A stretch of DNA of 41,537 nt. It comes from a virus. Numbering within the stretch: position 1 is the first letter of the stretch; every line of letters begins with the position of its first letter. The DNA lies in the IMG/VR virus record IMGVR_UViG_3300029319_000002, positions 154,512 to 196,048 of that record; one strand, written 5' to 3'. Shown here in pieces: positions 4,687 through 41,205 of this stretch. The notes under the pieces are model-generated. The model made no database searches, was not told the origin of the DNA, and saw only the letters and a list, made by a program, of their open reading frames with translations. The translations under genes and the position numbers were made by a program.

Positions 4687-4758
4687 GGGACTATCGCATA
4701 TTGGTTAATGCCCTCTGCTTATAACGGAGTGAACCGAGTTCAATTCTCGGTAGTCCTA
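4687..4758 (+). tRNA. tRNA-Ile (anticodon TAT)
   Basis: Cloverleaf by eye: acceptor GGGACTA / TAGTCCT (first pair G-U), D stem GCAT / ATGC, anticodon stem CTCTG / CGGAG with loop CTTATAA, T arm CCGAG-TTCAATT-CTCGG, discriminator A. CCA is not encoded. The UAU anticodon reads AUA, a codon common in AT-rich phages. Bacteria usually read it with a lysidine-modified CAU tRNA, so a UAU isoacceptor is notable. Confidence 0.88.
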
Positions 4759-4760
4759 TT

Positions 4761-4833
4761 GCTCCCTTAGCAATCTGGTGAATGCACCGAACTCATAATT
4801 CGGCTGAGGTGAGTTCGATCCTCACAGGGAGCA
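4761..4833 (+). tRNA. tRNA with CAT anticodon (Met, or Ile2)
   Basis: Acceptor GCTCCCT / AGGGAGC (7 bp), anticodon stem CCGAA / TTCGG with loop CTCATAA, T arm GTGAG-TTCGATC-CTCAC, discriminator A. The anticodon alone cannot separate elongator Met from lysidine-modified Ile2. An Ile-UAU gene directly upstream makes Met slightly more likely. CCA is not encoded. Confidence 0.85.
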
Positions 4834-4853
4834 CCTATATAAAGAAAACTTTT

Positions 4854-5009
4854 ATGAGACCTGAAACCCGTCAATCAATGGAAATGCTGTTTAAAGCAAA
4901 ATGGAACTTGCCAAAAGCAGCAGAAAATGCTAATCTTACGAACAAGGAAATGAAAATCACCTTCAACGAATACTGTGCTTTTCATCCTCCTACTTGGGAA
5001 ACTAAGTAA
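4854..5009 (+). CDS. Small conserved-type hypothetical protein (51 aa) within tRNA cluster
   Basis: Unknown function. The product starts MRPETRQSMEMLFKAKW and contains a helix-rich pattern (NLPKAAENANLTNKEMK) that looks like a small helix-turn-helix: two short helices joined by a turn and 'LT..EMK' as a recognition helix. I infer possible nucleic-acid binding, with low confidence. It sits between the Met/Ile2 and Leu tRNA genes and ends 6 nt before the latter, so it shares their transcript. I recall similar proteins beside tRNA genes in other cyanophages. Confidence 0.7.
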   Translation: MRPETRQSMEMLFKAKWNLPKAAENANLTNKEMKITFNEYCAFHPPTWETK

Positions 5010-5015
5010 TTTTTT

Positions 5016-5100
5016 GCGAGTATGGCGGAATCGGTAGACGCACCAGACTTAAAATCTGTTGGGCATTATGCCCGTGGGAGTTCAAGTCTCCCTACTCGCA
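5016..5100 (+). tRNA. tRNA-Leu (anticodon TAA)
   Basis: 85 nt with the long variable arm of class II tRNAs (GGGCATTATGCCC hairpin). Acceptor GCGAGTA / TACTCGC, anticodon stem CAGA / TCTG with loop CTTAAAA, T arm GGGAG-TTCAAGT-CTCCC, discriminator A. Confidence 0.93.
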
Positions 5101-5104
5101 CCTT

Positions 5105-5178
5105 GGGCAAGTAGCTCAGATGGATAGAGCATCGCACTTCTAATGCGTTGGTCGGGGGTTCGAGTCCCTCCTTGCCTG
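5105..5178 (+). tRNA. tRNA-Arg (anticodon TCT)
   Basis: Acceptor GGGCAAG / CTTGCCT (first pair G-U), D stem GCTC / GAGC, anticodon stem CGCA / TGCG with loop CTTCTAA, T arm GGGGG-TTCGAGT-CCCTC (one G-U pair), discriminator G. Reads AGA/AGG, which are frequent in this phage. Confidence 0.92.
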
Positions 5179-5202
5179 TTGGATCTAACGATCCATTGTC
5201 CC

Positions 5203-5210
5203 TCTAAATA
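5203..5210 (+). promoter_or_regulatory. Candidate late promoter TCTAAATA
   Basis: TCTAAATA ends 19 nt before the HNH gene start. The identical octamer precedes the tail-fibre gene (31601-31608) and, on the minus strand, the gene starting at 10467. A short GGAT/ATCC hairpin lies just upstream (5181-5194). Confidence 0.45.
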
Positions 5211-5229
5211 AAATTGTGTATGTTCAGTT

Positions 5230-5700
5230 ATGGAAACTATCCAACCTAATTCTACTGTTTTAGTTTTAAATAGTTCATACGAACCTCTCAATTTTACATC
5301 ATGGAAACGTGCCATAATTCTTTTGTTTAAAGAAAAAGCACAGTTTGTATCAAAAAAAGTTATTCGTTTGGTTAACTTTGTTCGGATACCATTCCATACT
5401 CAGCAGTTGGTGCATCCCACAAAGTCAAATATTATCAAGAGAGATAATAATCAATGTCAATATTGTGGATCTAGAAGTAATTTAACTGTAGATCATATTA
5501 TTCCCAGATCAAAGGGTGGACAAAACACCTGGGAGAATATGGTTGCATGTTGTGAATCTTGTAATGCCAAAAAAGGAGATCAAGATCTCAATAAAATAGA
5601 TATGGAACTTAGGTCTATTCCTAGGAAACCGATGAATAAAGTGATGCTAATCTTGAATAATACAAGAGATGATGAGTGGCAACAATTCCTCTTTTGTTAA
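5230..5700 (+). CDS. HNH endonuclease
   Basis: 156 aa with a C-terminal HNH domain: zinc pair CQYC (C76, C79), the DH motif in LTVDHIIPRSKGG (H89), Asn in WENMV, and the second zinc pair in CCESCNAKKGD. The N-terminal ~65 residues (VLVLNSSYEPLNFTSWKRA) match a widespread cyanobacterial/phage HNH family rather than a classical intron-homing enzyme. It likely nicks or cuts DNA in the cytoplasm, perhaps in packaging, recombination or exclusion. It sits inside the tRNA cluster, one base from the Thr tRNA gene, recalling the homing endonuclease SegB in the T4 tRNA cluster. A late-type octamer lies upstream. Confidence 0.85.
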   Translation: METIQPNSTVLVLNSSYEPLNFTSWKRAIILLFKEKAQFVSKKVIRLVNFVRIPFHTQQLVHPTKSNIIKRDNNQCQYCGSRSNLTVDHIIPRSKGGQNTWENMVACCESCNAKKGDQDLNKIDMELRSIPRKPMNKVMLILNNTRDDEWQQFLFC

Positions 5701-5701
5701 T

Positions 5702-5774
5702 GCCTCCGTAGCTCAGCTGGTAGAGCAGGGCTTTTGTAAAGCTCAGGTCGCAGGTTCAAGTCCTGTCAGAGGCT
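5702..5774 (+). tRNA. tRNA-Thr (anticodon TGT)
   Basis: Acceptor GCCTCCG / CAGAGGC has one C-A mismatch at the sixth pair. D stem GCTC / GAGC, anticodon stem GGGCT / AGCTC (G-C pairs plus one G-U) with loop TTTGTAA, T arm GCAGG-TTCAAGT-CCTGT, discriminator T. The last base is also the first base of the next promoter's -35. Confidence 0.88.
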
Positions 5775-5802
5775 TGACTAGGTAACTGATTCAAGTTATA
5801 CT
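5774..5802 (+). promoter_or_regulatory. Sigma70-type promoter TTGACT-N17-TATACT
   Basis: TTGACT (5774-5779), a 17-bp spacer and TATACT (5797-5802), ending 8 nt before the Gly tRNA. It gives the Gly tRNA, the structured RNA and the Asn tRNA a promoter separate from the first half of the cluster. Confidence 0.8.
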
Positions 5803-5810
5803 AGTCATAT

Positions 5811-5882
5811 GCGGGATTAGTTCAGTGGTAGAACGTCAGCCTTCCAAGCTGAATGTCGTCGGTTCGAGTCCGATATCCCGCT
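5811..5882 (+). tRNA. tRNA-Gly (anticodon TCC)
   Basis: Acceptor GCGGGAT / ATCCCGC, D stem GTTC / GAAC, anticodon stem TCAGC / GCTGA with loop CTTCCAA, T arm TCGG-TTCGAGT-CCGA, discriminator T. CCA not encoded. Confidence 0.93.
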
Positions 5883-5885
5883 TAA

Positions 5886-6051
5886 CGGACTGGAATACAT
5901 CCGTGCTCACATCTCCGAGAGAAAAAAGAATCGGAACACCAACCCATGTGAGAGAGAGGTGGGACCCCTCTTGGTGCCCCCTCTGCTGACGAGCAGAGGG
6001 TATTACACAATACCAGGACTTTGGTCCGAATTGCAGGTTGGTTCACCTGCA
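5886..6051 (+). ncRNA. Candidate structured non-coding RNA in the tRNA cluster
   Basis: This ~170-nt stretch between the Gly and Asn tRNA genes has no ORF but is full of stems. They are CGGA/TCCG (5886-5903), CTCACAT/ATGTGAG (5906-5912 with 5946-5952) enclosing TCCGA/TCGGA (5914-5918 with 5931-5935), CACCAA/TTGGTG (5937-5942 with 5971-5976), a 9-bp CCCTCTGCT/AGCAGAGGG hairpin with GACG loop (5979-6000), GGTATT/AATACC (5999-6014), GGAC/GTCC (6016-6027) and TGCAGGT/ACCTGCA (6032-6051). The CACCAA/TTGGTG stem crosses the CTCACAT stem, making an H-type pseudoknot. It is expected to be transcribed from the promoter at 5774 with the tRNAs. T4 likewise carries two stable RNAs of unclear role (species C and D) in its tRNA cluster. 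Family unknown. Confidence 0.65.
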
Positions 6052-6056
6052 CCCAT

Positions 6057-6129
6057 TCCTCTATAGCTCAGTTGGTAGAGCAGGTGACTGTTAATCACCC
6101 TGTCCCTGGTTCGAGTCCAGGTGGAGGAG
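6057..6129 (+). tRNA. tRNA-Asn (anticodon GTT)
   Basis: Acceptor TCCTCTA / TGGAGGA (one U-G pair), D stem GCTC / GAGC, anticodon stem GGTGA / TCACC with loop CTGTTAA, T arm CCTGG-TTCGAGT-CCAGG, discriminator G. Last tRNA of the cluster. Confidence 0.93.
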
Positions 6130-6148
6130 TTGTCCATCTTTTTCTATC

Positions 6149-38297: not shown

Positions 38298-38415
38298 GTT
38301 ACGAAACGTAACACTCAACTCCCCGTAAACCAAGACCTATAGGGAGTCTAAACACGTCTTTCATACCTCTGTTAAGGGTGCAGAGGAATAGTAACTCCAC
38401 CATTTCCCTGATGGT
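38298..38415 (+). promoter_or_regulatory. Structured psbA leader RNA
   Basis: The leader holds GTTACG-AAA-CGTAAC (38298-38312), a longer-range ACTCCC/GGGAGT pairing (38318-38323 with 38342-38347) competing with AGAC/GTCT (38333-38349), CCTCTG/CAGAGG (38366-38371 with 38381-38386), and ACCAT/ATGGT (38399-38415). No Shine-Dalgarno precedes the start. Conserved RNA motifs before psbA (PhotoRC types) are known in marine cyanophages; whether this is one needs a covariance-model search. Confidence 0.6.
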
Positions 38416-38436: not shown

Positions 38437-39519
38437 ATGGCTCAATCTATTCTTTCGGGACAACGGTCCCAGTCCACTTGGGATAATTTCTGCGAGTGGG
38501 TAACTTCTACCAATAACCGCCTCTATGTCGGTTGGTTCGGTGTGTTGATGATCCCAACTCTGTTGGCAGCAACAATCTGCTTCATCACCGCCTTCGTCGC
38601 TGCTCCTCCTGTGGACATCGACGGCATCCGTGAACCCGTCGCTGGTTCACTCATGTACGGAAACAACATCATCTCTGGTGCAGTTGTTCCCTCTTCCAAC
38701 GCAATTGGTCTTCACTTCTATCCCATCTGGGAAGCCGCCTCTCTCGATGAGTGGCTGTATAACGGTGGTCCTTACCAACTTGTAGTTTTCCACTTCCTCA
38801 TTGGAGTCTTTGCCTACATGGGTCGTGAGTGGGAACTGTCTTACCGTCTAGGTATGCGTCCTTGGATCTGTGTTGCATACTCTGCACCTGTTGCAGCAGC
38901 ATCTGCAGTATTCCTAGTCTATCCTTTCGGTCAAGGTTCTTTTTCTGATGGTATGCCCCTAGGCATCTCTGGTACTTTCAACTACATGCTTGTCTTCCAG
39001 GCAGAGCACAACATCCTAATGCACCCCTTCCACATGCTTGGAGTTGCTGGTGTCTTCGGTGGTTCACTCTTTTCTGCAATGCATGGTTCACTAGTTACCT
39101 CTTCACTGGTTCGTGAGACCACTGAAACTGAGTCCCAGAACTATGGTTATAAGTTTGGTCAAGAAGAAGAGACTTACAACATTGTTGCTGCACACGGATA
39201 CTTTGGTCGTCTAATCTTCCAATATGCATCGTTCAACAACTCTCGTTCACTTCACTTCTTCCTCGCAGCATGGCCTGTGGTTGGTATCTGGTTTACCGCT
39301 CTTGGTGTTAGCACCATGGCATTCAACCTTAACGGTTTCAACTTCAACCAGTCTATCCAAGACAACCAAGGACATGTCCTTAACACTTGGGCAGACGTAC
39401 TCAACCGTGCTGGTCTAGGTATGGAAGTAATGCATGAGCGCAATGCTCACAACTTCCCCCTCGACCTTGCTGCTGCTGAGTCAACTCCTGTTGCTCTAAC
39501 TGCACCTGCTATCGGTTGA
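38437..39519 (+). CDS. psbA: Photosystem II D1 protein
   Basis: 360 aa, complete, no intron. D1 forms the reaction centre with D2 in the host thylakoid membrane; phage copies keep electron transport going as host D1 turns over. Landmarks (this protein's numbering, one above the standard): Glu131 in [12 protein letters not shown] (standard position 130), Tyr162 (redox Tyr Z), Asp171 (Mn cluster), His191 and His199 ([14 protein letters not shown]), and the C-terminal [20 protein letters not shown], processed after the Ala of DLA. Glu at standard position 130 is the high-light (D1:2) type. The gene is GC-richer than its surroundings, as is common for host-derived psbA. Own promoter, structured leader and terminator. 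Confidence 0.98.
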
Positions 39520-40149: not shown

Positions 40150-41205
40150 ATGGTAGCTTCAACTTTACAACAACAGCAGAGGGGTTGGTTCGATGTCCTT
40201 GATGACTGGATTAAACGGGATCGTTTTGTCTTTGTGGGTTGGTCTGGACTACTTCTTTTTCCCACTGCTTATCTTGCAATTGGGGGCTGGCTCACTGGTA
40301 CTACTTTTGTTACGTCGTGGTACACCCACGGATTGGCGTCTTCCTACCTTGAGGGTGCTAATTTTCTTACAGCGGCTGTGTCAACGCCTGCTGATGCTAT
40401 GGGTCATTCTCTTCTTCTACTTTGGGGTCCTGAGGCTCAGGGAGATTTCGTCCGTTGGTGCCAACTTGGGGGACTCTGGAATTTTGTGGCACTCCACGGG
40501 GCCTTTGCCCTTATTGGGTTCATGCTTAGACAGTTTGAACTTGCTCGTTTAATCGGTATCCGTCCGTACAATGCGATTGCTTTTTCAGGTCCTATTGCCG
40601 TATTTGTTAGTGTATTTCTCATCTACCCTCTCGGACAGTCGAGTTGGTTCTTTGCGCCGTCCTTTGGCGTGTCGGCAATCTTCAGATTCCTACTTTTTCT
40701 ACAAGGATTTCATAACTGGACGCTCAACCCCTTTCACATGATGGGAGTTGCAGGTATTCTTGGAGGAGCCTTGCTCTCTGCCATTCATGGTGTTACAGTA
40801 GAAAATACTCTGTATGAAGATGGTGAACAAGCAAACACTTTCAAAGCATTTGACTCTACTCAAGAGGAAGAAACCTACTCAATGGTTACTGCAAACCGTT
40901 TCTGGTCTCAGATCTTCGGTATTGCGTTTAGTAATAAGAGGTGGTTGCATTTCTTTATGCTCTTTGTTCCTGTTATGGGTCTTTGGACAAGTTCCATCGG
41001 TATTATTGGTCTTGCTCTCAACCTTCGTGCTTATGACTTTGTTTCCCAGGAAATCAGAGCATCAGAAGACCCAGAGTTTGAAACCTTCTACACAAAGAAC
41101 ATTCTCTTGAATGAAGGTCTTCGTGCATGGTTAGCACCAGTTGATCAACCACACGAACAGTTTGTATTCCCTGAAGAAGTTCTTCCTCGTGGTAATGCAC
41201 TGTGA
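40150..41205 (+). CDS. psbD: Photosystem II D2 protein
   Basis: 351 aa, complete. D2 pairs with D1 and carries the plastoquinone QA site. Landmarks: [55 protein letters not shown] (with redox Tyr D in the LIYPLGQ stretch), [15 protein letters not shown] (chlorophyll His), [20 protein letters not shown] (iron His), and the C-terminal [12 protein letters not shown]. Translation is helped by GGAGG 12 nt upstream, in the end of the preceding gene. No promoter of its own is visible. Its stop overlaps a GTG-started small membrane protein gene (GTGA). Like psbA it is GC-richer than nearby genes. Typical cyanophage auxiliary gene. Confidence 0.98.

Follow-up and report, generated by a model that had tools for sequence, protein, structure and literature searches.

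A conserved, apparently undescribed structured RNA gene in the tRNA arrays of cyanomyoviruses

The tRNA cluster of bacteriophage T4 contains two stable RNAs, rnaC and rnaD, whose function is still unknown (PMC9697503), and the 173 bases that separate tRNA-Gly from tRNA-Asn in a cyanomyovirus tRNA array raise the question of whether they too encode an RNA gene and, if so, of what kind. The DNA analysed here (the window, 41,537 nucleotides) is a portion of a 196-kb IMG/VR virus record. Besides seven tRNA genes spanning 4687-6130 (ARAGORN), it carries cyanomyovirus genes, among them those for ribonucleotide reductase and for two photosynthetic reaction-centre proteins. An HNH endonuclease gene (5230-5700) is inserted between tRNA-Arg and tRNA-Thr of this array; elsewhere, a PhotoRC-II RNA (38309-38399, Rfam) lies directly 5' of one photosynthetic reaction-centre gene (38437-39519), the second being located at 40150-41205. 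A sequence-only reading had described the roughly 170 non-coding bases between the two tRNAs, an estimate that agrees with the interval's length, as a structured region and possibly a new phage ncRNA.

Extent and fold of the RNA gene

The inter-tRNA sequence folds better than its dinucleotide shuffles (z = -3.3), and contains an RNA gene of about 120 nt overall (5883-6004, about 122 nt) with a conserved core of about 90-92 nt (5883-5972), the covariance model R1 scoring 110.9 bits at 5883-5973 of the window. The features of the locus are as follows.

5774..5802, plus strand: sigma-70 type promoter (TTGACT-17 nt-TATACT), the nearest promoter to the RNA gene in the window
5811..5882, plus strand: tRNA-Gly (TCC), first gene of the transcript (ARAGORN, Rfam)
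5883..6004, plus strand: ncRNA gene, made up of core P1-P4, 3' hairpin P5 and UAUU linker (BLASTN, alignment, covariance model R1)
5885..5904, plus strand: P1 hairpin, 5 bp (5885-5889/5900-5904), four of five pairs changed on both sides
5906..5952, plus strand: P2, 7 bp (5906-5912/5946-5952), closing P3 and J3/2, 99.7% of cells paired
5914..5935, plus strand: P3 hairpin, 5 bp (5914-5918/5931-5935), CCGA/UCGG versus CCAG/CUGG
5919-5930, plus strand: near-invariant purine loop of P3, GAGAAAAAAGAA, conserved also in a loop-unconstrained scan
5936..5945, plus strand: J3/2, its 3' end a near-invariant CCC (5943-5945) that may pair with GGG of L4
5954..5972, plus strand: P4 hairpin, 6 bp (5954-5959/5967-5972), three pairs changed on both sides
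5960-5966, plus strand: P4 loop (L4), UGGGANC, with GGG at 5961-5963
5979..6000, plus strand: P5 hairpin, 9 bp, GACG loop (5979-5987/5992-6000), an exchangeable 3' part with compensatory changes
6001..6055, plus strand: accessory module between P5 and tRNA-Asn, hairpins GGAC/GUCC (GGAC-UUYG-GUCC) and TGCAGGT/ACCTGCA
6056..6130, plus strand: tRNA-Asn (GTT), next gene of the transcript (ARAGORN)
6119..6145, plus strand: possible intrinsic terminator 3' of tRNA-Asn (sequence match)

The predicted start from the promoter at 5774-5802 falls at about 5810, the first base of tRNA-Gly, and since this promoter directly precedes that tRNA, the earlier proposal that the ncRNA is co-transcribed with the Gly and Asn tRNAs is well founded. 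The predicted transcript would run from tRNA-Gly through the ncRNA to tRNA-Asn and end perhaps at 6119-6145, terminator-type matches 3' of tRNA-Asn occurring at a frequency near chance level.

An alignment of 47 diverse copies (A2) supports P1, P2, P3 and P4. Across these helices 97.2% of cells are paired, a figure that drops to 28-52% when the 3' strands are slid, and double-sided changes affect 11 pairs and 83 cells, as against 20 cells in shuffles; RNAalifold recovers P2, P3 and P4 unaided. The tree-aware null for single pairs is conservative, with only pair 76-86 of its alignment standing out by itself, and we therefore rely on helix-level counts. The strands of P2 vary between CTCACAT/ATGTGAG, CTCACGT/GCGTGGG and CTCGCGT/ACGCGAG, and its wobble pairs number 70 U-G/G-U with zero A-C, which fixes the plus strand as that of the RNA. 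The best covarying pair of the whole RNA (GC/AU/UA) sits in P4. A scan in which the P3 loop was left free returned a nearly identical loop throughout, so that conservation of this loop does not stem from the search pattern. The minimum-energy fold of the window's 122-nt form alone has stems partly unlike those of the comparative fold; the latter is preferred.

The stems CTCACAT/ATGTGAG and TGCAGGT/ACCTGCA (6032-6051) and the 9-bp GACG-loop hairpin named in the sequence-only reading are all present, the first as P2 and the last as P5, both with compensatory changes behind them; those changes extend to five helices, P1-P4 and P5. P5 occurs as 25 distinct stems of one loop class, every one of them paired and one position varying CG/GC/UA; it is elsewhere swapped for other hairpins, and is absent in S-H34 (L010) and L294, which makes it an accessory part. 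The structured region delimited previously (5886-6051) survives as an RNA gene with altered boundaries, 5883-6004, its last ~50 bases (6001-6055) being only accessory: this module recurs in only 10 other loci, 3' of the ncRNA wherever checkable, and among phage records only in S-CREM2. In two loci (L049, L111) the copy is decayed, with the P4 3' strand and P5 gone and the loop GGG changed to GGA.

The H-type pseudoknot originally proposed, in which CACCAA (5937-5942)/TTGGTG (5971-5976) would cross P2, has to be abandoned. All six of its pairs occur in just 7 of 155 copies, total pairing equals that of randomly re-paired strands (612 observed, 613 shuffled), and the TTGGTG strand starts inside P4, to which, as a covariation-supported helix, 5971-5972 belong. 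The better candidate is a contact of J3/2 with the P4 loop. CCC (5943-5945) and GGG (5961-5963) are both kept in 127 of 129 distinct cores; because both strands are invariant, this is no proof of their pairing. In three loci A60 has become G and U79 has become C (A2 columns), neither change being found singly, and this one probable compensated change, from A60-U79 to G60-C79, favours a J3/2-L4 contact, though in a register incompatible with simultaneous CCC/GGG pairing. In the ZTP (pfl) riboswitch a stem-loop domain likewise has a junction that base-pairs with a hairpin loop further 3'; the likeness is one of topology only, the ncRNA having neither an Rfam match nor an expression platform and its pairing being a candidate.

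Distribution and relation to known RNAs

The ncRNA is present in at least 188 related viral loci, in the same kind of place and with 129 distinct cores, these loci being Kyanoviridae isolates of Synechococcus (several genera) and IMG/VR contigs, the count having been brought to this level by pattern scans of IMG/VR. Loci L188-L251, drawn in by one viral scan, are unrelated and were excluded. By BLASTN, the first ~120 bases match 17 phage GenBank records. All 17 are from Synechococcus phages, of several genera, and not one annotates the stretch; named carriers are S-CREM2, S-8S53, Sf-CH1a/1b/11, Sf-FR1, S-SCSM1, S-SCSM2R, S-CAM3, Bellamy and S-H34. Measured against the ~407 cyanomyovirus records that match a marker protein of the window, this amounts to about 4% (17/~407), and the ncRNA is thus not essential. 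Each of the 13 positive-control genomes gives a single strong match to R1, and there is no copy in S-PM2, S-CRM01, S-RSM4, P-SSM2, S-SSM7 or T4. A host origin was rejected: across 386 cyanobacterial genomes R1 gives no full match, its only hit being partial and weak (E = 0.099). Among 84,980 species scanned by pattern there was one real match, L172 (NZAX01000079.1), labelled as a Flavobacteriaceae MAG, which is probably a misbinned cyanophage contig, since its upstream flank is identical to viral contigs L127 and L164. Within what was searched, the ncRNA therefore appears restricted to cyanomyoviruses.

Rfam 15 has no family match on the 173 bases even at E<=10, and at the gathering score only the two tRNAs pass, the best other hits lying far below gathering with E>=1. 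The S-CREM2 and S-SCSM1 papers, on two phages that carry the ncRNA, report only Rfam-detectable RNAs, an annotation route that missed it; the open-access papers searched hold no earlier description, most subscription journals and preprints lying outside that search. The suggestion of a new phage ncRNA is strongly supported by the lack of an Rfam match, the compensatory changes, the possession of its own promoter when first in the operon and the homologues in many cyanophages, and the RNA gene family is real, conserved and apparently undescribed, its structure and genomic logic being strongly supported.

In genomic setting and in size the ncRNA resembles the stable RNAs of T4: rnaC (139 nt) and rnaD (119 nt), species 1 and 2, are small RNAs likewise spaced like tRNA genes. 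No homology emerged when T4 was scanned with R1, the one direction of comparison made. T4 rnaC carries a T-arm-like GGTTCGAATCC, whereas the ncRNA has none. Close to the 3' end of T4 rnaC (L252:1109-1247) lies GGTTCGAATCCCGG, which resembles a T arm and gives rnaC the look of a tRNA derivative. The ncRNA is recognised as a tRNA by neither ARAGORN nor Rfam. GOLLD and ROOL are large, structured phage RNAs of unknown function that form nanocages and are often found near tRNA islands (PMC12286853), a setting like that of the ncRNA, but they are far larger than its approximately 122 nt and no homology was detected by Rfam covariance models. PhotoRC-II, wcaG, manA and glnA are, like the ncRNA, structured RNAs of T4-like cyanophages; unlike it, they occupy the positions of regulatory elements for protein genes, whereas the ncRNA lies among tRNAs.

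Promoters, neighbours and alternative explanations

Upstream sequence sufficient for testing was available for 151 copies. In 128 of these a tRNA lies upstream at a gap of 0-5 nt, and TATAAT is found there in none; for three of the 128, ARAGORN did not call the tRNA end, which was identified by eye from its GGTTCGAGTC arm, so that for ARAGORN-called tRNAs the count is 0/125. Every copy without an upstream tRNA has TATAAT (23/23), and in 21 of these TTGAC is also present at the correct spacing; since the -10 box ends 7-9 nt 5' of the ncRNA, the predicted transcription start falls on the first bases of the ncRNA. Within 700 nt upstream, 115 of 134 relatives have a sigma-70 type promoter (17/134 on the reverse strand), neighbouring tRNAs are co-directional with the ncRNA in 256 of 256 cases, and their pairings are many and varied, which argues against a fixed cis target. 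tRNA-Asn adjoins the ncRNA in 86 of 97 loci, compared with 47 expected for random slots, an excess that shared ancestry can explain. The same arrays contain other inserts: a second small motif, GGGGGAGUACAAAAGAUCUG...CAGYGCCCCC, with compensatory-looking stem changes (L005:2726-2790, also L068, L072, L081, L086 and L100) and without an Rfam hit in L005 and L072, the two copies scanned; GGTGGCAGACAGTAAGAGGGAGCGACAAACTGCTCCCCGCCACC, with a nested hairpin, 3' of the ncRNA in L127, L164, L172, L026 and L117; and, between tRNA genes near the ncRNA, a Phd-like antitoxin ORF annotated in Bellamy, with a similar-looking ORF seen by eye in L032 (L032:9676-9846, L007:4145-4336).

The main rival to a trans-acting RNA is a cis-acting element of the tRNA operon, serving the folding, processing, anti-termination or end-protection of neighbouring tRNAs in the manner of the HK022 put RNA. 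The ncRNA always lies in tRNA operons, 111 of 134 copies sit 0-2 tRNAs behind a sigma-70 type promoter, and NusG-like genes are nearby in S-CREM2 and S-H34. This role is weakened, however, by the lack of any fixed position or downstream gene (the ncRNA can be first, middle or last in the operon, and another RNA gene does not follow directly in 11 of 112 copies) and by the similar promoter proximity of tRNA genes, on account of which operon position does not discriminate and was discarded as a clue to leader function. Most tRNA operons of these phages, moreover, function without the ncRNA, and its near-invariant loops exceed the needs of a spacer; on balance we regard a cis role as unlikely, if worth keeping in view. 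Less probable again is an RNA that, as a decoy or in the manner of an antitoxin, would block a nuclease or toxin of host defence, similar to type III toxin-antitoxin RNAs or to phage-carried RNA anti-defence. The compact fold with an A-rich loop, the patchy distribution and the host-type promoter would suit such an agent, and an abiF RNA has been reported in another cyanophage, S-CREM1 (PMC9964418); against it, the 386 cyanobacterial genomes hold no counterpart RNA, and the ncRNA, a single copy flanked by tRNAs, forms no tandem repeat and has no Rfam toxin-antitoxin or abiF match.

Two further explanations have little to recommend them. The T-box bulge consensus UGGNACC pairs with NCCA, and the resemblance of L4 (UGGGANC) to this bulge, in an RNA sitting among tRNAs, could suggest a function limited to binding tRNA 3' ends, by which the ncRNA would sense or hold tRNAs. 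We consider this very improbable: the Rfam T-box model gives no match at E<=10, there is no specifier stem, terminator or regulated gene, and the same L4 bases have an internal partner in the J3/2 CCC. It is scarcely credible that the locus is a DNA element (a homing or recombination site, or a small mobile repeat) which merely looks structured, even though HNH/Seg endonuclease genes occur in the same arrays and the ncRNA occupies many different slots, given its strand-specific G-U pairs, compensatory changes in five helices, constant co-direction with tRNAs, single copy per genome and a promoter positioned on its first bases.

A probable trans-acting RNA carried like a tRNA

The explanation that we favour, and think probable, is that of a free-standing structured phage RNA gene which is carried, transcribed and freed as a tRNA would be, and whose product is stable and acts in trans. 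Its footing in the sequences consists of the fold, the strand, the promoter logic, the tRNA-like spacing, the single copy and the restriction to cyanomyoviruses in the data searched; from these we infer that a mature RNA exists and is stable. A host-type sigma-70 promoter would start a short transcript of tRNAs and ncRNA. Cleavage of the adjacent tRNAs, of RNase Z/RNase P type, or else initiation at +1, would set the ends of the ncRNA, and the freed ncRNA would persist during infection and act in trans. The near-invariant P3 purine loop, J3/2 AACCC and P4 loop UGGGANC, probably brought together by the J3/2-L4 contact, form a putative surface at which a single conserved partner, protein or RNA, from the translation or RNA machinery of host or phage would bind. 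More tentatively, and with considerable doubt, the ncRNA could be the first representative to be recognised of trans-acting phage RNAs delivered as 'honorary tRNAs', a class that would use this surface to commandeer an RNA or a translation component of the host, e.g. through capture of tRNA ends, of a ribosomal site or of an RNase.

The rule that either a promoter or a tRNA precedes the ncRNA 5' end shows that tRNA arrays also carry other RNA genes. The family occurs in abundant marine viruses, its predicted ends are sharp, it has a promoter of its own, and phage-host pairs are in culture (S-CAM3, Bellamy, S-SCSM1, S-H34), so that the old question of the non-tRNA RNAs in the tRNA clusters of T4-like phages becomes testable outside T4.
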